Below are positions 12,517 to 23,436 of a stretch of 29,252 bases of DNA, piece by piece. Each line of letters starts with the position of its first letter. Positions within the stretch are counted from its first letter, which is position 1. The stretch is from positions 1 to 29,252 of the IMG/VR virus record IMGVR_UViG_3300036401_000795; one strand, written 5' to 3'. The notes below the pieces were generated by a model. It was not told the origin of the DNA. It worked only from the letters and a program-made list of their open reading frames with translations, and searched no databases. The position numbers were made by a program, and so were the translations under genes. This stretch comes from a virus.

Positions 12517-12791
12517 GTCAGCTCCAGCAGCAGGTCGATCATGCGTCCGGGAAACAGCGCCTGGTACACCATCAGCTCGGCGCGCGGGTTGTCGCGCACT
12601 GCGTTCTCCGGACCGTGGCGCCAGCGGAGGAAGTGCTCGAGGAACGGGCGCGGCCGCGTGACTCGGAGGTGGATGGTCGCGTAGAGCTTCTCCGCCGTCT
12701 GGTGGTGGGCGGCGGCCGTTGCGTCTTGGATCACGTGCAGCATCAGGAAGTCCTGCACGAGAACGAATAGGTCGCGGTCTTCGGCTCTCAT
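12513..12791 (-). CDS. Hypothetical 92-aa helical protein
   Basis: The start at 12791 overlaps the nuclease stop (ATGA). Residues 1-35 are hydrophobic-helical (DLFVLVQDFLMLHVIQDATAAAHH). The middle carries basic residues (LRVTRPRPFLEHFLRWRHGPEN), and the C-terminus is again hydrophobic (ELMVYQALFPGRMIDLLLELT). No clear membrane segment or catalytic motif is seen. Being the first small gene after the RecB-like exonuclease, it could act as its partner or inhibitor. Function unknown. Confidence 0.6.
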   Translation of the reverse strand: MRAEDRDLFVLVQDFLMLHVIQDATAAAHHQTAEKLYATIHLRVTRPRPFLEHFLRWRHGPENAVRDNPRAELMVYQALFPGRMIDLLLELT

Positions 12792-13750
12792 GATGGTCCG
12801 TCGTCCGTCCATGTGGTGATGCCATCCTTGGCGCGGTAGACCACGGTCGATTCAGTCGCGTCCACCTGCTCGAACCAGTGCAACAGCGACGGCAGGAACA
12901 GGTGGTGCGAACATCCGGCCTTCTGCTCGCCCTCGGTGAGATGTCTCTTGTGCACGCTGCACCACCAGCCGCCGGGGACTAGCGTCTTCCCGACGTCGGG
13001 TGTGCCGACCGCCTGCGGCCCGCCGACCTCGGGCGTCACGTGCAGGCACGTGCGGCAGTGACGATCGGGGAACATCTCTTCGAAGCAGATCTTGTTCCAC
13101 TTGCAGGGCCGGCACTGGTACCAGTCCTGCTTGTTGCTGATGCGCTCGGGCAGCGTCTGCCGGCGGATGCCGCGCTCGGCGCGGTCGATGAACCGCTGCG
13201 CGGCGAGCCGGTTGAGCGGCACGCGCTCTTCGTAGATGCGGTCGTCGTCCTTGTTCACCGCCAGGTAGAGCGCGCGGTCGAGCTTCGCGCCGACCATGTA
13301 GACCTGCATCTGCGCGTAGTGCTCGGGACACGCCAGCTCGACGCCCTTCTTCGCCAGCTCGGTCCAGCGACTGTCGTTCGAGGTCTTGAGCTCGAGGATG
13401 TGCCAGGTCGCCGGCGCTTCGGGGATCCCGCGCACGATGCCATCCGGCGTGCCGCCGAAGTGGCCGTTGACGAACGACGCGCGTATCGGCAGCGCGAACT
13501 CGTAGCCGAGGTCGTGCAGGTCATCCAGCAGTTGCTTTTCCTCCTGGTCGCCGCGGCGCAGCAGGCGCACCATGCGCCCCTCGCGCTTGATCCTCTGGGC
13601 CCAGCGGAACGAGTACCACACCTTGCGCAGGCACTCCTCGCCGACTTCGGATGCGCCGAGGTGCAGGCGCCTGGAGTCCTCCTGGGTGTCGTGGGACCGC
13701 TGGAACAGGGCGGCGGTGACGAGCAGGGTGTTGTCAGGGACGGGAACCAT
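12788..13750 (-). CDS. RecB/Cas4-like PD-(D/E)XK exonuclease with Fe-S cluster motif
   Basis: A nuclease of about 320 residues. The core motifs are GGTPDGIV (catalytic Asp), ILELKTSN (E-x-K) and AQMQVYM (the RecB-family Q-x-x-x-Y motif). A Cys near the N-terminus (GEECLRKVWY) and C-x2-C-x5-C near the C-terminus (CRPCKWNKIC) match the four-Cys iron-sulphur cage of Cas4, AddB and Dna2. A second Cys cluster follows (CRTCLH and WWCSVHKRHLTEGEQKAGCSHH), an unusual C-terminal extension. The ATG at 13750 is chosen; GTG at 13777 is equally possible, and neither has a Shine-Dalgarno. It heads a leftward operon, divergent from the HTH regulator. The likely role is 5'-end resection in phage recombination with the Sak4-like ATPase and DUF669 proteins. 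Confidence 0.85.
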   Translation of the reverse strand: MVPVPDNTLLVTAALFQRSHDTQEDSRRLHLGASEVGEECLRKVWYSFRWAQRIKREGRMVRLLRRGDQEEKQLLDDLHDLGYEFALPIRASFVNGHFGGTPDGIVRGIPEAPATWHILELKTSNDSRWTELAKKGVELACPEHYAQMQVYMVGAKLDRALYLAVNKDDDRIYEERVPLNRLAAQRFIDRAERGIRRQTLPERISNKQDWYQCRPCKWNKICFEEMFPDRHCRTCLHVTPEVGGPQAVGTPDVGKTLVPGGWWCSVHKRHLTEGEQKAGCSHHLFLPSLLHWFEQVDATESTVVYRAKDGITTWTDDGPS

Positions 13751-13828
13751 GGGGAGGGAAGCGCGCCGGTCAGCCACCTTGCACTAGGAGAAGTCGGGGA
13801 GTCGTCAGATCCCGGCTGGCCGACGCGC

Positions 13829-14113: not shown

Positions 14114-14890
14114 ATGGCAATCTCCCTCGCGTCCCTTCGCAGCGAGCGCGCCTGCGAAGCTCCCCGGCTCGGCATCTACGGCCGGCCAGGCGTCGGCAAG
14201 ACGTCGTTGGCAGCGACCGCTCCGAATCCGGTCTTCATCCTGACCGAGGAAGGCCTCGGCACGATCAAGCCGACCCCGAAACACACGCCGCTCTGCCGCA
14301 CCTACGAGGAGGTGCTGCAGTGGGTGATGGCGCTGCGCGTCGAGGAGCACGACCGGCAGACCGCCGTGCTCGACTCGCTGGACGGGCTCGAGCCGTTGAT
14401 GATCGCGCACATCGCGCGGCAGGACGGCAAGACGGTGGAGGACTTCGCGCTCGGCAAGGGGAACTTCGGCTACGGCAAGGGCGCGAACCGGTTGGCCGAC
14501 GAGATGCGCACCTTCCTCGAGGCTCTCGACTCGCTGCGCGAAGCGAAGAACATGGCGGTCATCCTGATCGGTCACGACAAGGTGAAGCGGTTTGAGGCGC
14601 CCGACGTCGAGAGCTACGACCGCTATCAGATGGCCATCGAAGAGCGGTCTGCGCTGCACGTCATGAAGTGGCTCGACGCGCTGTCCTTCGCGCACTACCG
14701 GACCAGCGTCACGAAGGGCCAGGACGGCAAGGTCCGCGGCGTCGGCGCCGGCGAGCGGTTGCTGGCGCAAGACGAGTTGCCGAGTCGGATGGCGAAGAAC
14801 CGGTACGGAGCGCCGCGCGAGATCAGCATGAACGCGGCCGCGCAGGTTGGCGTGGTCGCGGCGTTGATGACGCCGGCGGTGAAACCGTGA
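14114..14890 (+). CDS. AAA_24 / Sak4-like recombination ATPase
   Basis: A 258-residue phage NTPase of the AAA_24 type (related to Sak4, a RecA-core single-strand annealing helper). Walker A is GRPGVGKT (23-30) in RLGIYGRPGVGKTSL. The Walker B-like strand is TAVLDSLDGLEPL. A sensor-like strand is MAVILIGHDKVKRFEAP, and a GKGNFGYGKGANRLADEMRT segment resembles this family. A longer upstream frame exists, but the ATG at 14114 precedes the domain naturally. It is followed by the prohibitin-like membrane protein (GTGA overlap) and then the DUF669 protein; ATPase plus DUF669 is a common pairing in phage recombination modules. Confidence 0.8.
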   Translation: MAISLASLRSERACEAPRLGIYGRPGVGKTSLAATAPNPVFILTEEGLGTIKPTPKHTPLCRTYEEVLQWVMALRVEEHDRQTAVLDSLDGLEPLMIAHIARQDGKTVEDFALGKGNFGYGKGANRLADEMRTFLEALDSLREAKNMAVILIGHDKVKRFEAPDVESYDRYQMAIEERSALHVMKWLDALSFAHYRTSVTKGQDGKVRGVGAGERLLAQDELPSRMAKNRYGAPREISMNAAAQVGVVAALMTPAVKP

Positions 14891-15306
14891 GCGACAGCAC
14901 CAAGGGCGCGCTGATCGGCACCATCATCGTTTGGGTGATCCTGCTCGGCGTCCTCGGCAGCTGCTGGGCCCTGCCGCACTACAACGTGTGGCAGCAGGGA
15001 CTCGCCGGCGAAGCGGAGCTCAAGCGCGCGTCGCAGAACCGACAGATCGCCGTGCAGGAAGCCGAGGCGAAGCACGAGGCGGCGAAGGCGCTCGCGCAGG
15101 CCGAGATCGAGCGCGCCAAGGGCGTCGCCGAAGCCAACCGCATCATCGGCGAGAGCCTGCACGGCAACGAGGACTACCTGCGCTACCTCTGGGTGCAAGG
15201 CCTCGAGCACGCCGAAACGTCGGTCATCTACGTGCCGACCGAAGCCAACCTTCCCCTGCTGGAAGCAACTCGACTCACCAACAAACCCCAACCCCAACCG
15301 AAGTAA
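14887..15306 (+). CDS. Mini-prohibitin/SPFH-like membrane protein
   Basis: A 139-residue protein starting at GTG 14887 (overlapping the previous stop). Residues 8-30 form one transmembrane helix (GALIGTIIVWVILLGVLGSCWALP). After a short linker there is a charged helix rich in Ala/Glu/Lys (residues about 42-85), then a segment very like the C-terminal part of stomatin/prohibitin proteins: ERAKGVAEANRIIGESL, YLRYLWVQGLEHAETSVIYVPTEANLPLLEA. The SPFH core that normally lies between is absent, so this is a membrane anchor plus the oligomerising C-terminal part only. It lies inside the recombination operon between the ATPase and DUF669 protein, so it may tether phage DNA work to the membrane or block a host SPFH/FtsH system. 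Confidence 0.65.
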   Translation: MSDSTKGALIGTIIVWVILLGVLGSCWALPHYNVWQQGLAGEAELKRASQNRQIAVQEAEAKHEAAKALAQAEIERAKGVAEANRIIGESLHGNEDYLRYLWVQGLEHAETSVIYVPTEANLPLLEATRLTNKPQPQPK

Positions 15307-15308
15307 CC

Positions 15309-15806
15309 ATGGTTCAGATCGACTTCGACGCTAACGCCTACGAGCCCGACGCCGGCTTCGAGGCTCTCCCCGCCGGCCAGTACATCGCGCACATCACCAA
15401 CAGCGACAAGCGCAACGCGAAGACCGGCAACGGCTGGTACCTCTGGTTCGAGTTCGAGATCCGCGAAGGCGCCGCGGCGGGTCGCAAGGTCTGGATGAAC
15501 CTGAACCTCGGCAACACGAACACCGAGGCGGTGCGCATCGCGAACGCGCAGTTCTCTGCGCTCTGCCGAGCGGTCGGGAAGATGCGCGTCGCCGACACGA
15601 GCGAGCTCCACATGCTCCCGGTGGAGATCAAACTCACGAAGCGTGAGGCAAGGGACGGCTACGACGCCAGCAACGAGGTCCGCGGCTTCAAGACCGTTGG
15701 CCGTGTTGCTGGCGCCGCGGCTTCTTCTGCTCCTGCCCCTGCTCCTGCGCCAGTTGCGGCAGCCGGGCCGCCCGCGAAGCCAGGCGAGGCGAACTGGCGG
15801 CGATGA
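15309..15806 (+). CDS. DUF669 protein, probable ssDNA-binding protein
   Basis: A 165-residue DUF669-type protein: FDANAYEPDAGFEALPAGQYIAHITNSDKR at the start, WYLWFEFEIREGAAAGRKVWMNLNL, then NAQFSALCRAVGK and KREARDGYDASNEVRGFKTV. These match the phage DUF669 pattern (AGxYxAxI...W.fe..eG...gR..w..l). The last 40 residues are an Ala/Pro-rich linker ending GEANWRR, with no acidic SSB tip. It starts 2 nt after the stop of the prohibitin-like gene. It likely binds single-stranded DNA together with the Sak4-like ATPase. A second, more divergent DUF669-like protein occurs at 1387-1821. Confidence 0.8.
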   Translation: MVQIDFDANAYEPDAGFEALPAGQYIAHITNSDKRNAKTGNGWYLWFEFEIREGAAAGRKVWMNLNLGNTNTEAVRIANAQFSALCRAVGKMRVADTSELHMLPVEIKLTKREARDGYDASNEVRGFKTVGRVAGAAASSAPAPAPAPVAAAGPPAKPGEANWRR

Positions 15807-17267: not shown

Positions 17268-17479
17268 CGACTCTCTTTCACAACGGTTAGCAGGGACTCG
17301 GTGTACTCGCGCCGCGCGGCCGCCCTATCTTCTCGGTCCGCAGCGCGATCTCGATCACAAGCCGCGCGTTCCGCACGCAGGGCTTTCAGGAACAGGAACT
17401 GAGTCACGATCACAGCCGCGCCGACAACGGTGTTGCCGACGAGCGACCAGATGTCGGTGATGGTCGCCTGCGCGATCAT
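17258..17479 (-). CDS. Small single-TM coiled-coil protein (holin- or Rz-like?)
   Basis: A 73-residue protein whose ATG overlaps the polyvalent-protein stop (ATGA). One hydrophobic segment (residues about 10-33: IWSLVGNTVVGAAVIVTQFLFLKAL) is followed by a charged helix (RAERAACDRDRAADREDRAAARREYTESLLTV). This is the topology of an inner-membrane spanin (N-terminal TM plus periplasmic coiled coil), although it is short, or of a holin/antiholin-like protein. It lies directly before the lipoprotein gene, with which it overlaps, supporting a paired function in lysis. No endolysin was found in the window. Confidence 0.6.
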   Translation of the reverse strand: MIAQATITDIWSLVGNTVVGAAVIVTQFLFLKALRAERAACDRDRAADREDRAAARREYTESLLTVVKESRCR

Positions 17480-20400
17480 CGGTTGACTCGGGCCATGGCC
17501 TGCTGCGCAATCTCTCGCACCTGTTGGTCTGCCTGTTCGCGGGTGAGGCGTCCCGCTCTCTGGTTGCGGTGAAGCTCGGCGATTCGGGTCACGGCGATGT
17601 TGACCACGTTCCGGTTCTCCAGTCCGCGGTAGCCGAGCAGGCCGCTGCCGTGCTGCTGCTGCAGAGTGCGCTGCAGGTCGTAGAGGTCTTCGACTGCGCG
17701 ACTGCGCGTGTTCTCGCGCATGAACGCGCGACCGACGAGCGGCAGCTTGCCTGCCGAGAAGCCCTCCTTCGTGGCAGCGCCGCCGAGGGTGGCCACATCC
17801 GTCGTGATGTCCACGGCACGGCCATAGAGACCGCCACTCGCCGTGTCCAGGAACCGGTCGATCTTCGCCGGCGAGAGGTTCAACACCTGGCCGAGCAGCA
17901 CCGCGGGCTCGCGCGTGTAGGGCATCATCTGCTCGGCCGGCACGCGCCCCTGCAGCATCCAGTCCGGCACGGTCGGGCGTCCGGAGTAGAGGCTGCGATT
18001 CATCATCCACTCGAGCTCCGGCGCCGCGATGTTCGGCACGATGTTGCTCGGCAGGAAGGACAGCGCGAGGTTCTTCACGAACTCGCCCACCTCGAGCGGG
18101 TGCTTCTCGACGGCCTGTCCCAGCAGCGCCTCGGGTGTCGAACCGAACAGCATGCCGAGCTCGCGCTTGCGGATCCGGAACGGCGCGTCGATGCCGGGCA
18201 GCCTGAACCACCAGAAGCTGGCGCGATCCTGCTCGGTCAGGTCTTGGTACCACGGCTCGTCCTTGTTCAGCCACCAGAGCACGATGCTCGGCGCTGCGAG
18301 GCCGAGGAACCCGCGCATCAGTGCGCGCTGCTGCTTCTCCTTGCCCTCGATGCCGCCGAACATGCGCATCGCCTGCTCGGTCGCGTTGATGGGCGCTTTG
18401 AGGTAGGCGATGATCTGGTTGGCCGCGCGCGAGACAGTGCCGCCGCGCGCGAAGTCCACGGTGATCTTCTGGGCCGCTTCCATGCCCAGTTGGTTCGCCT
18501 CGAGCTCCGACTTGCCGGACGCGAGCGCCTGGTCGCGCACGTACTTGAACTCGTCCAGGCGTGGGCCTTGCTCGCCGATCGACAACTTGCGCGCCAGCGC
18601 TGAGCTCACCCGCTCGAGCAGCTGCATGGAACCCTTGCTGGCCGTGAGCTCCGAGCCGCTGAACGTGCTCTCGAAACCGCCGCCAAGGTTGCGCCACAGC
18701 TTCGCGGTCTCGCCGTCTTTGGCGACTTCCACCATGCCGGCGATCGAGTGCCCAAGCGCCGAGAAGATGCCGAACGGCATCGGCCGGTCCGAGAACAGGA
18801 ACTTGTTGATCGAGTCCGGGATGATCTGCGCGAGCGCGAAGACCGGGTTCAGCACCGTGCCGCCGAGGCGCCCGAGCGACGCCGGCAGCGTCAGCGCGCC
18901 GCGCCAGAACGGCGGCAGCCCGTCGATGACAGTCTGTCGCGTGCCCAGGTCGCGCATCCGTTCGAAGGTCTCCTGATTGACCTCGAGCCACAGCACCTTG
19001 CCGTCCATGTTCGCGGCGATCTGGCGGGCCTCCCGCGACGGCAGACTAGCGATCTCGCCAGGCTGGAAGTGTGGCGTGTAGGCGACCACGGGTCGTGCAC
19101 CCTTCGGCGCCCGCTCCTGGCCCCACAGCGTGATGGCGCCGCCGAGGTCATCGCCCGAGTCCATGATCTGCTGGATCGTCTTCGCCACGAGCTCGGCCGA
19201 CGGGTTCTTCGTGTTGGTCAGCGCTTTCACCACCTCCTCGATCGCCACGTGGCGCGGGATGCGATCGCGCGCGACCTCGGTCACGAGGCCGCCGGTCTTC
19301 TGGTGCACGAGGCCGAACTTGAGCAGGGCCTTCATCGCCATGCCACGGTGCACGTCGGTGATGACGCGGCCGACCAGGCGCTCGACCGACTCGCGCGGAT
19401 CCTGGATCTCCTGGTGCGTGCTGCCGGTCTGGTGGCGAACGCTCGAGCCGACTTCGGGCCCGCGCAGGCTGGCGATGCGCGCGCGTTGCGGACCTTCCAT
19501 CACCCGATCGAAGGGGATGTAGTACTGGTAGCCCTTGTCGGTGATGTCGCCCGTCTCCGGGTCGCGCTGCACGCGCTTGAACTTCTCCACCTGCTCGCGC
19601 GTGAACAGGCCCCCTTCCACCGCGTAGTCGAACACGCGGTCGAAGAAGCCGCGGATCCGGTCAGCGAAACCGCGGACCTCAGGGAAGCGGTCCTCGACCT
19701 CGGTCACGGTGCGCAGCAGGTCGTCGAGCGGTGCGTTGGTGGTCTTGCCCTTGGCGGAGATCTCCAGAGAGTGCTGGGCCACCATCCACGTCGTGAAGTC
19801 GCGCCAACGCTCGGCGCCGATGTCGTTGAAGATGTCCTTGAAGGACTCGCCAGTCTCCTTACCGAGCAGGCTCACGGTGCCGTGGCCCATGAACCGCTCG
19901 GCGATGCGCGGGGCGGTGCGCTGCAGAAGGTCGATCTCGCGCGCTGGATCGGCCAGCGGCCCCGCCTCGCGGATGGTGTCGCGCGCCTGCTCCTTCGTCA
20001 TGCCCTGGCTGGTCAGCGCCTCCACTTGCGCGCGCTCGAGCCCCAGCGTGTCGTGCACGACCTGGGTCTGCATCGCGCGCCAGGCCTGCCTCAGCGCCGC
20101 CTGCGCCCGCGCCGGCGTCGTGTCCGTCATCACCCCGCGAGCCTGGAGTTGCTGCGCGCTCTCCTGGTCCTCGATGAACTGCACCGTGCTGGCGACACGC
20201 TTCGTCGCGCCGATGTCGCGCCATTGGCGCAGCGCGCCCTGGATCCGCTGCATCTGCCGGAGCAGCGTCGGGTCCTTGGCGAGCCACTGCATCGCCTTGT
20301 CGTAGGCGGCGCCGGTCTCCTTCTGCAGGATCGGATCGTCGAGCATCCACCGTGCCCAGAACTCCGCCCACGCCTCGCTGCGCTGGCTGTTCTTCGGCAG

Positions 20401-23400
20401 ATCGGCGAAGCCGGGGTAGTACTCAGCCGCCGCGCGACCGAACTGCGCCGCCTCCTCCTTCGTGAGGCCGAGCTTGAGCATGCCGGCGCCGCGCGGGCCG
20501 ACCACGGCGCCCTCCATCGCGTGCGACCACTCGTGCGCGCCGAGGATGACGTTGATGCCGGTCTCGCCCTCGGGCATCCGCATGGCGTGCCGAAAGCGGT
20601 CGTAGAAGGCGAGCATGCCCTTGGTGCTGTAGCGGCCGCGGATGCCGATGCCCCAGTGCAGCGCGGGGCGCACCTTGTCGCCCTCGAAGCCCTGCATCTC
20701 GCGCAGGATGTCGGACTCGCGGATCGGCTCGGTGCCGGGCACACCCTCGAGCTCTAGTTGCGGCCGCATGCGCAGCGACGCCGGCGTGCCTGATCCGGGC
20801 GGCGACGGCTCGCGACGGACCGCTTCGGGTACTGTTTCGGTACTGGATTCGTACTGCTTTTCCAGTACCGGCGGCTCGGCGCCCAGCGCCTGCAGCTCCT
20901 CCTCGGTCACCTGGCTGGACGGCTTCCAGTCCGCCAGGACCTCGCGGCGCCCGCGTGCGTCGGGGGCGGCGGCGAGCTCGCGCTGCAGGTCGGGCGGCAA
21001 GTCGCGGAACCGCGGCGACTCGAGCGGGTCCGGGCCTTCCTCGAGGAACGTCTCGCGCGCCACCTCGGCTTCCATGGCCTGTGCGGCAGCGCGCTTCTCC
21101 TTGCTCTCCTCCCCGGCCGAGCGCGACGCCATCAGCATGCGCTGCTCCGGGCTGAGCGCGACGTCCTCCTTGCCGAGCAGCTGGTGCACGACCTTGGAGC
21201 CACGGAAGACCTCCCGGACCTGCTCGGCGCCAGGCTCGACGATCGCCTCGGCCGCGCCGCGCGCCATCCGGGGCATCTCGCCTTTCATGCGCGCCTGGAG
21301 CGCCTTGATCTGGGCGCTCTTCTCCGGGCTGCTCGGTTGCGCCTGCAGCGCCCGCAACTGCTGCCGGAACTCCTCGCTGAACACGTCGGGCTCGGGCGGC
21401 GCAGGGGCCTTCTCGCCGGTCAGGAAGCGCCCCAGGGCCTCGTACTTGGCCGGGCCCTCCTCGGCGCCGCGAGCCTCGTGCAGTCGCTCACGGGCCTCCT
21501 GGCCGGCCTGGAGTTGCTCCTGCGGCGGTCTGTCGATCCCTGCCGCCTGCGTCCGCAGCTCGCCCTCCGCCGCCTGGGCCTGCTCCAGGTGTTCCTGGGC
21601 CGCCTCCGGTTGCTTCCCGGCCAGCACTTCGGCGCGCCGCATCAGGTCGCCGTAGCGCTGGTAGGTCTGGGCGTCCACGCCGGCACCGGCCGCCGTGCGC
21701 GCGGCGCCCTCGCCCTCCTCTGCCTTTGCGCGCTCCGGCAGCGCCTGCTCGCCCGGCGAGCGGCCGCCGGCCAGCTTCATCATCGCCATCGCCGCCATGT
21801 TGCTGACGGTCTGGCGAAACAGCGCCGCCCGGGTGTCCTCGTTCGGGTTGCGGATGAAGTCCCACGCCAGGTCCCAGGTGTGGGGGTCGATGCCGGCGAA
21901 CCCAGCGCCCTCCGCCGCCCCGGCGAGCGTGCGCGCCATCGTCTCGGGCATGCCGGTCGTGCGCCCCAGCAGGCGCTCCACGCCCTTGCCCATGGCCCCG
22001 AGCGTCATCAGAACCGGGGCCTGCGCGGCGCCCTGCAAGAACGCGGCGCCGTAACCCTCGATGTGGCCGTTGGCCATGGCCTCGTAGGCGCCGAGCCCGC
22101 CCGCGGCGCCGGTGAGGCGCGCTGCCGGCGACAGGACCTGCACCATCGTGGCGGCCTTCTCGAGGTTCGCCGCCGCGCGACCACCGGTGGCCAACCAGCC
22201 GAGCCCCTTGAGCATCAGGTTCGAACCCGCCGCCATGGCGCCACCGCCGAGGCTCGCGAACGGCAGCAGCGACCCCAGCACGTGCCCGGTGTCCATCGCC
22301 AGGCCCTCGATGCCCGAGGCACGCATGCGCGCGGTCGCGCGAACGTCGGCGTGCTCGGCCATCTCCTGGTCGATCAGGTTGCCGGTCAGCGAGTACCACA
22401 GCGCTGCCATCCCCTCGGCCGCGCCGACCTTGCCGCCGTTGTGGTACCAGCTGCCGTCCTGGTCCTGCACCCACGACGTCGGCTGGTTGTAGTAGGCCGC
22501 TGTCTTGCCCTGGGTCAGACCGTCCAGCGACAGCACACCGAGGCGCTCGAGTGTGCTGGCGACGCCGGCACCGACTCCCATCATCGCGTCGGCGAACGAC
22601 TCGGCGGCCTCGCGCACCGGCATGAGCGCGCGCTCGTGCAGCGGCATCTGGGCGAGGATGTCCTGCGGTTTGCTCTGCAGGTAGCCAGGCGTGCCTGGCC
22701 CGGCCTCCGCGTTCAGCATGCGCGCGATGCGAGAGGTGCGCGGGTCATTGAACACCGACGTGCCGACCTGCGCCTTCATCGCGTTGTCGAGCTTCACGAT
22801 GCGTTGACGCAGCGTCGCGATCTCGTTCGGATCCACGCGCACCGGCTCGAACTGCTGGGACAGCTGGGCGAGCTCCTCCTCGCTCATGCCCGGCTGTGGC
22901 ATCACCCGGTTGGCCTTGTTGTGGTCCTTGTAGCGCTGCACGATCGAGTTGGCGTAGGTCTCGATCTCGCCCCATCCGTGTTCCTGCAGCAGTTGCGGCA
23001 CCACCATCTGCCGGCGCGCGATCTGCAGCGCCGCCGCCTGCAGCTGCACCTCGGGATGCGCCGCGGTCGTGGCCGCGCTGGTGATGCGCGGTTGCCCGTC
23101 CGGGATCTCCTCGGACATCAGGCGCTGCAGAACGAGACTCCGCTGATCGCCCATCAGCCTGTCGGCCGTGGGGAGGTCGTTCGACTTGAAGGCCTGGTCG
23201 ATCTTCCGCGTCAGCGAGCGAACGACGCGGTAGGTGAGGACGTCACCGTTTCCCTCCGCCGCCAAGTCCGTACTCGGCGACCCGATCGCGCGAGGACCGC
23301 CCTGGGGTTGCTGGGGTTGCGGCTCCTGTGGATCGTCCTCGCTCGGCAGCGCGGAGGTTGGTGGCGGCGTCGGGGAGGAGAGGGGGCCCGCCGCCGGGGT

Positions 23401-23436
23401 TCTCGACTGCGGCTCCGCTGGATTGAGGTCTAGCAC
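17476..23436 (-). CDS. Giant polyvalent internal-virion/ejected protein with zincin-like motif
   Basis: 1986 residues. The GTG start at 23436 is supported by AAGGAGG 5 nt ahead. The N-terminal 60 residues are Pro/Gln-rich and disordered. Residues about 330-550 hold several Gly/Ala-rich hydrophobic segments (GSLLPFASLGGGAMAAGS, PVLMTLGAMGKG). A zincin-like HEWSH lies at 968-972, with Glu1021/Glu1025 in SEAWAEFWARW as the possible third ligand. A region about 1430-1900 resembles the large polyvalent proteins of phages (LPD38-like), including LNPVFALAQIIPDSINK, ITVDFARGGTVSRAANQ and GFLGLAAPSIVLWWLN. Such proteins are packaged and ejected with the DNA, and can carry several enzymes. It overlaps the upstream gene by 194 nt in another frame. 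An individual domain call needs a profile search. Confidence 0.8.
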   Translation of the reverse strand: MLDLNPAEPQSRTPAAGPLSSPTPPPTSALPSEDDPQEPQPQQPQGGPRAIGSPSTDLAAEGNGDVLTYRVVRSLTRKIDQAFKSNDLPTADRLMGDQRSLVLQRLMSEEIPDGQPRITSAATTAAHPEVQLQAAALQIARRQMVVPQLLQEHGWGEIETYANSIVQRYKDHNKANRVMPQPGMSEEELAQLSQQFEPVRVDPNEIATLRQRIVKLDNAMKAQVGTSVFNDPRTSRIARMLNAEAGPGTPGYLQSKPQDILAQMPLHERALMPVREAAESFADAMMGVGAGVASTLERLGVLSLDGLTQGKTAAYYNQPTSWVQDQDGSWYHNGGKVGAAEGMAALWYSLTGNLIDQEMAEHADVRATARMRASGIEGLAMDTGHVLGSLLPFASLGGGAMAAGSNLMLKGLGWLATGGRAAANLEKAATMVQVLSPAARLTGAAGGLGAYEAMANGHIEGYGAAFLQGAAQAPVLMTLGAMGKGVERLLGRTTGMPETMARTLAGAAEGAGFAGIDPHTWDLAWDFIRNPNEDTRAALFRQTVSNMAAMAMMKLAGGRSPGEQALPERAKAEEGEGAARTAAGAGVDAQTYQRYGDLMRRAEVLAGKQPEAAQEHLEQAQAAEGELRTQAAGIDRPPQEQLQAGQEARERLHEARGAEEGPAKYEALGRFLTGEKAPAPPEPDVFSEEFRQQLRALQAQPSSPEKSAQIKALQARMKGEMPRMARGAAEAIVEPGAEQVREVFRGSKVVHQLLGKEDVALSPEQRMLMASRSAGEESKEKRAAAQAMEAEVARETFLEEGPDPLESPRFRDLPPDLQRELAAAPDARGRREVLADWKPSSQVTEEELQALGAEPPVLEKQYESSTETVPEAVRREPSPPGSGTPASLRMRPQLELEGVPGTEPIRESDILREMQGFEGDKVRPALHWGIGIRGRYSTKGMLAFYDRFRHAMRMPEGETGINVILGAHEWSHAMEGAVVGPRGAGMLKLGLTKEEAAQFGRAAAEYYPGFADLPKNSQRSEAWAEFWARWMLDDPILQKETGAAYDKAMQWLAKDPTLLRQMQRIQGALRQWRDIGATKRVASTVQFIEDQESAQQLQARGVMTDTTPARAQAALRQAWRAMQTQVVHDTLGLERAQVEALTSQGMTKEQARDTIREAGPLADPAREIDLLQRTAPRIAERFMGHGTVSLLGKETGESFKDIFNDIGAERWRDFTTWMVAQHSLEISAKGKTTNAPLDDLLRTVTEVEDRFPEVRGFADRIRGFFDRVFDYAVEGGLFTREQVEKFKRVQRDPETGDITDKGYQYYIPFDRVMEGPQRARIASLRGPEVGSSVRHQTGSTHQEIQDPRESVERLVGRVITDVHRGMAMKALLKFGLVHQKTGGLVTEVARDRIPRHVAIEEVVKALTNTKNPSAELVAKTIQQIMDSGDDLGGAITLWGQERAPKGARPVVAYTPHFQPGEIASLPSREARQIAANMDGKVLWLEVNQETFERMRDLGTRQTVIDGLPPFWRGALTLPASLGRLGGTVLNPVFALAQIIPDSINKFLFSDRPMPFGIFSALGHSIAGMVEVAKDGETAKLWRNLGGGFESTFSGSELTASKGSMQLLERVSSALARKLSIGEQGPRLDEFKYVRDQALASGKSELEANQLGMEAAQKITVDFARGGTVSRAANQIIAYLKAPINATEQAMRMFGGIEGKEKQQRALMRGFLGLAAPSIVLWWLNKDEPWYQDLTEQDRASFWWFRLPGIDAPFRIRKRELGMLFGSTPEALLGQAVEKHPLEVGEFVKNLALSFLPSNIVPNIAAPELEWMMNRSLYSGRPTVPDWMLQGRVPAEQMMPYTREPAVLLGQVLNLSPAKIDRFLDTASGGLYGRAVDITTDVATLGGAATKEGFSAGKLPLVGRAFMRENTRSRAVEDLYDLQRTLQQQHGSGLLGYRGLENRNVVNIAVTRIAELHRNQRAGRLTREQADQQVREIAQQAMARVNR
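20829..20868. repeat. CAGTAC array with 11-bp spacing inside the polyvalent gene
   Basis: Read on the plus strand, GTACTG occurs at 20829, 20840 and 20851, followed by the inverted form CAGTAC at 20863. The spacing of 11, 11 and 12 bp is one helical turn and not a multiple of three, so it is not driven by a peptide repeat. Outer copies form a 9-bp inverted repeat (CGGTACTGG / CCAGTACCG). It could be a binding site for a protein or a slippage product. Confidence 0.5.

Follow-up and report, generated by a model that had tools for sequence, protein, structure and literature searches.

SPFH complexes have been studied as whole cages, and the roles of their base, wall and cap are debated. The PHB1/2 and Erlin complexes follow the order TM, SPFH1, SPFH2, CC1, CC2 and beta9/CT; assembly of SPFH complexes is damaged most by mutations in CC2, and the reported subunit number varies with the length of CC1 by the regression y = 0.178x + 10.2, or about two subunits per 11 residues (PMC12624060). 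Phages are known to carry full-length SPFH genes, which have been discussed as morons or as having an unclear role (PMC10269572, PMC1524935, PMC8540360, PMC13239085). Here we analyse a viral gene whose short product, which we call a mini-prohibitin, carries a prohibitin-like C-terminal region and no SPFH core.

The gene and the anatomy of its product

The window (the whole stretch of viral DNA analysed, 29,252 nucleotides) contains an open reading frame of 139 codons at 14887-15303, with its TAA stop at 15304-15306. An earlier note on this DNA had placed it between genes for a Sak4-like ATPase and a DUF669 protein, and both the coordinates and the profile matches agree. The upstream gene matches AAA_24 and the Sak4-like PHROG 124 (E 3e-34), and its TGA stop (14888-14890) is overlapped by the GTG start codon at 14887; the downstream gene, which matches DUF669 (E 4e-14) and the ssDNA-binding PHROG 6015, starts at 15309 after a 2-base gap. 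Base composition gives no foreign mark (GC 0.662 in the mini-prohibitin gene versus 0.68 in the window). The features are as follows.

12788-13777, minus strand: Cas4-like (PD-(D/E)XK) exonuclease of the same recombination module (profile matches)
14114-14890, plus strand: Sak4-like ATPase, a neighbour not regarded as a functional part (AAA_24 and PHROG 124)
14887-15306, plus strand: mini-prohibitin coding sequence without SPFH core, 139 residues, PHROG 11227 family (open reading frame, profile match, purifying selection in relatives)
14905-14973, plus strand: hydrophobic anchor, residues 7-29, a transmembrane helix or signal-like segment (hydropathy, AlphaFold helix)
14953-14964, plus strand: lipobox-like LGSC, residues 23-26, a putative lipidation site (sequence)
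14977-15159, plus strand: CC1-like helix, residues 31-91 (AlphaFold helix, coil lengths of relatives)
15169-15210, plus strand: CC2-like helix, residues 95-108, with invariant Tyr97 (alignment, AlphaFold, PMC12624060)
15223-15270, plus strand: C-terminal SPFH-type strand and tail VIYVPTEANLPLLEAT, residues 113-128 (conservation, PHB2 alignment)
15309-15806, plus strand: DUF669 ssDNA-binding-like protein, a neighbour not regarded as a functional part (DUF669 and PHROG 6015)

Elsewhere in the window, near one contig end (606-1145, plus strand), lies a gene for a RadC-like protein with a JAB domain (PF04002, E 2e-38), and a 1986-codon frame at 17476-23436 on the minus strand carries an HEWSH zinc-protease-like motif and an LPD38 domain of the kind usual in large polyvalent phage proteins.

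Hydropathy, structure prediction and profile search agree on the overall plan that had been proposed: one hydrophobic segment at the N-terminus, a long helix, and a C-terminus of SPFH type. The AlphaFold monomer model, built with alignment rows from the window, viral contigs and genome contigs, has a helix over residues 3-91 (pLDDT about 90-98), a break at 92-94, a second helix over 95-108 and a C-terminus at low confidence. The anchor continues directly into the CC1-like helix, which is followed by CC2 and then by the strand region, and the C-terminal motif reads EANRIIGESL...VIYVPTEANLPLLEA. Tyr97 is invariant across the family alignment, and Y115, P117, T118, E119, P123 and E126 are near-invariant. 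The coil between G41 and R76 spans 35 residues in most members, 46 in Bacteroidetes-type viral members and in one cellular member (L131), and 57 in another (L125); coil lengths in relatives differ solely by +11 or +22, the exact hendecad steps expected of a hendecad coil. These two cellular members (L131:1266-1718, +11; L125:3001-3468, +22) group in the tree with the Bacteroidetes-type viral members.

Band_7 (PF01145) has no Pfam match in the mini-prohibitin or anywhere in the 29-kb record, and 139 residues would leave no room for an SPFH core; the absence of a core, as the earlier note had it, thus stands. When the family profile was compared with PDB chains at E values up to 1, all eight matches were SPFH proteins, namely PHB2 (1e-4), other prohibitins, QmcA (0.03) and PHB1. 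HflK and HflC were absent among the eight, so that of the comparisons proposed beforehand the one with prohibitins succeeded, at PHB1 and PHB2, and the one with HflK/HflC did not. The NCBIfam HflC and HflK models likewise did not match the window protein; weak matches were seen in relatives (HflC in 10 members, HflK in 2). Searches of the PDB with the monomer model, a single long helix, by Foldseek and by VIA-align returned no match. Proteins annotated as SPFH superfamily members in haloarchaeal tailed viruses (HCTV-10, HCTV-9, HRTV-13, HSTV-3 and others) align with the mini-prohibitin over residues 78-128 only, the C-terminal region being all that they have in common with the family. The exclusively SPFH matches in the PDB and this haloviral alignment indicate an SPFH-homologous C-terminal module from which the core is missing. 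These profiles make the C-terminal half of the protein a homologue of the CC1-CC2-C-terminal region in prohibitin-type SPFH proteins, which bears out the likeness to prohibitin first noticed from the sequence alone, and the family appears to keep the assembly parts of SPFH domes and to drop the base.

The side of the membrane on which the coil lies is suggested by relatives. A signal peptide with lipobox is clear in the Bacteroidetes-type viral members (for example MKKVGLLIALGAMLFSVTSC), whose coil it places outside the cytoplasm. A lipobox-like motif is present in 33 of 89 relatives, unmistakably in these viral members only; the cysteine of LGSC at residues 23-26 of the window protein is not conserved family-wide. 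An excess of K/R on the C-side of the hydrophobic segment occurs in 50 of the 89 members, and the charge counts are ambiguous for topology. An extracytoplasmic coil is likely for the window protein as well.

Distribution and selection in the family

The mini-prohibitin matches PHROG 11227, labelled 'protease', with an E value of 3.4e-51 (residues 12-133 of a 138-position model), and it also matches the C-terminal part of PHROG 200, which comprises full-length phage SPFH lipoproteins (E 8e-8). All 75 relatives in our alignment match the former family and 36 of the 75 match the latter; neither Pfam nor NCBIfam offered a convincing model. Public annotation calls the family 'protease' or, in some GenBank phage records, 'membrane protease subunit', a label that reflects SPFH resemblance. 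A protease identity was rejected, as no catalytic domain was found, and the label is unsupported for the window protein, in which no protease domain was found. The sequence cluster is already catalogued as PHROG 11227; in the part of the literature covered by our search we found no description of its SPFH-less form in phages, nor any account of what the family does.

Dozens of unrelated phages carry the family, among them Agrobacterium phage Milano and Synechococcus phage S-PM2, and it is also scattered among bacteria, archaea and plasmids. Viral relatives were found at 49 IMG/VR loci, and most of 88 phage records encode the family, the haloviral ones sharing the C-terminal region only. At least 80 bacterial or archaeal loci encode the family or its C-terminal module, with at least 333 cellular relatives confirmed among the stretches examined; short frames without a core account for 79 of the 80 cellular loci listed. 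Six plasmids encode the family or its C-terminal module. Relatives are mostly 39-72% identical to the query, and identity holds at about 40-70% across phyla and both domains. Cellular genomes have the gene only sporadically. One order had it in 7 of 149 genomes, and in two of these stop codons fall within the matched stretch; Pseudomonadota had it in about 10 of 398, with one copy split by a stop, and Bacteroidota in 5 of 296. Each count includes the centre genome, which was chosen for having the gene. Viral and cellular branches are intermixed in the tree, where well-supported branches force at least five changes.

Pairs of relatives with usable dS gave dN/dS of 0.01-0.14, and by this measure the family is under strong purifying selection. 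This constraint and the conservation of the sequence rule out a fresh pseudogene or truncation. The description of the protein as a truncated prohibitin is therefore apt in that the SPFH core is missing; it misleads in that nothing was recently broken, the protein belonging to an intact, widespread, stand-alone family. A known anti-phage defence protein was also considered and rejected, with no useful PADLOC match: the window protein had none, and 2 of 75 relatives matched ZorB weakly (best E 0.003). At one cellular locus (L062:612-1814) the family gene has a CRISPR-associated Cas_NE0113 gene some 1.1 kb upstream.

Genomic context

The location of the gene had been taken as a sign that it was unlikely to be random cargo. 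We searched viral contigs by DUF669 and single-protein scans. In none of the 16 other loci with a Sak4-DUF669 pair (L139-L146, L167-L173 and L067; about 13 non-redundant) does the gene lie between the two, so the proposed three-gene order did not recur among them. Only one of them, in a Planctomycetota MAG, has the gene nearby, about 0.6 kb upstream of a Sak4-DUF669-exonuclease module; at this locus (L067:462-6384) a Toprim/DUF3987 primase-like gene and the mini-prohibitin gene precede the module, and no other locus besides the window has both gene and module. But for this locus, the outcome is the one that the earlier note had named as refuting its idea, absence of the gene from all relatives with the pair. 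No recurrent partner emerged, since among 129 neighbour genes at 42 viral loci no family appeared in more than two loci. The gene has a PnuC-like transporter gene as its context in FBKp24, thymidylate synthase in PhiEaH1 and a primase in AAM22; in SPN1S it is on the opposite strand, beside the terminase. A link to recombination through conserved gene order was rejected on these counts, and the argument from position is not supported.

The proposal that the protein tethers the recombination module to the membrane can still draw on the stop/start overlap with the ATPase gene, the 2-base gap to DUF669 and the second locus in the Planctomycetota MAG. Set against the 16 of 16 other pairs that do not enclose the gene and the lack of a recurrent recombination neighbour, we consider it barely credible; moreover, an extracytoplasmic coil, to which the lipobox of some relatives points, would be poorly placed to hold cytoplasmic recombination proteins. 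The placement between two recombination genes looks incidental, and the codon overlap with the ATPase indicates shared expression at most. Scattered positions, the absence of fixed neighbours, the reversed strand in SPN1S, interleaved branches marking exchange with cells, sporadic presence and plasmid copies are instead what is found of a cargo, or moron-like, gene.

One cellular context points elsewhere. In five Selenomonadaceae MAG loci (L072, L073, L075, L083 and L085) the gene adjoins an operon of the MlaE/MlaF/MlaD type, and in the first of these (L072:1359-4689) it lies between the genes for the MlaF-like ATPase and MlaD, as might be expected of an envelope lipid homeostasis factor tied to MCE/Mla lipid transport. 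We saw this context in a single bacterial family and in no phage, and we regard such a role as very improbable.

A candidate membrane scaffold and its alternatives

We favor, at somewhat short of an even chance, a model in which the cargo gene encodes a scaffold anchored in the membrane, whose copies would assemble with one another by way of the SPFH dome wall and cap. In this scenario, a stand-alone mini-prohibitin passing between phages and cells would have landed between two recombination genes without necessarily working with either. Its N-terminal segment would hold it in the inner membrane, and rod and cap would pack laterally through contacts of CC1, CC2 and the C-terminal strand, as in an SPFH dome, yielding a homo-oligomeric ring or dome without the SPFH base. 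During infection the product would most likely be a membrane scaffold that alters the local membrane or confined proteins, such as FtsH-type proteases or envelope machinery, presumably to the phage's benefit.

Structural points argue for self-assembly, the exact hendecad steps in coil length among them. The predicted helix 3-91, break and helix 95-108 fit the TM/CC1-bend-CC2-beta9 arrangement, and Y97 aligns with PHB2 Y248 (the alignment is ungapped after residue 63), a residue that bonds to the CC1 of the neighbouring subunit at the CC1-CC2 bend (PMC12624060). Against this reading, by the offsets of the PDB alignments, V80 stands at the place of PHB1 D217, with which PHB2 Y248 pairs; it is not equivalent and would leave Y97 without its counterpart. 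Lateral contacts in full-length SPFH proteins involve the SPFH domains too, so that the coil and cap may not suffice for ring closure. The lack of a Foldseek match for the monomer model, the low confidence at its C-terminus and the ambiguous charge counts likewise speak against the model. The conservation at about 40-70% identity is independent of the host, and contacts of the protein with itself fit it better than a fit to each host's SPFH proteins.

In the main alternative, the CC1-CC2-C-terminal module would enter host rings (of prohibitin type, HflKC or QmcA) or those of a phage full-length SPFH lipoprotein as a poison subunit, opening the dome and altering FtsH activity. A subunit with the assembly elements but no base would suit this role. 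In its native state HflKC can surround FtsH as an open assembly, and its conformation matters for stress adaptation (PMC13220708), and the C-terminus resembles both the lipoproteins of PHROG 200 and some bacterial proteins of 284-293 residues (E 7e-10 to 1e-7). However, the sequence does not track host phylum, HflK and HflC are missing from the PDB profile matches, and 16 carrier genomes gave a single long-frame candidate (E 0.006), so that a closely matching partner is not evident. We judge mixed rings unlikely.

A modulator of FtsH or another envelope protease that needs no ring to act, such as a helical inhibitor shielding phage proteins from FtsH, would accord with regulation of FtsH and the lambda CII decision by HflKC, a point that PMC8540360 cites from earlier work, and with public labels that stem from SPFH resemblance. 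We think it improbable, as the protein has no identified protease or FtsH-binding element, neighbouring genes give no hint, and the SPFH base absent here carries HflK residues that appear important for FtsH contact (from PMC13220708).

Returning to the scaffold that assembles with itself, a broader proposal, which we hold only as a doubtful possibility, is that phages, bacteria and archaea share an SPFH-less scaffold whose domes, of about 20 subunits each and without a base, form directly on the membrane, their size being set by the number of 11-residue coil repeats, and that phages would reorganise the host membrane by this means. Many unrelated phages carry an unstudied, putative membrane scaffold currently mislabelled 'protease'. 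A selected, mobile family with wall and cap and without base represents a natural dissection of the SPFH machine, and its 11-residue length variants would allow the reported relation of subunit number to CC1 length (PMC12624060) to be tested directly.

Among described systems, the window protein is closest to PHROG 11227, of which it is a member by full-length match and equal size and architecture. With HflK/HflC, modulators of FtsH, it shares the overall TM-CC-CT logic and differs in having no SPFH core and no PDB profile match to them. The full-length phage SPFH lipoproteins (PHROG 200, the haloviral proteins, and those of CSP3, RB43, Aeh1 and GIB1) are likewise viral and share the SPFH C-terminal region, whereas they retain the core. 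Prohibitins PHB1 and PHB2 have the N-terminal membrane segment and the homologous CC1, CC2 and C-terminal strand region in common with the mini-prohibitin, which in 139 residues, as opposed to 272-299, dispenses with SPFH1 and SPFH2.
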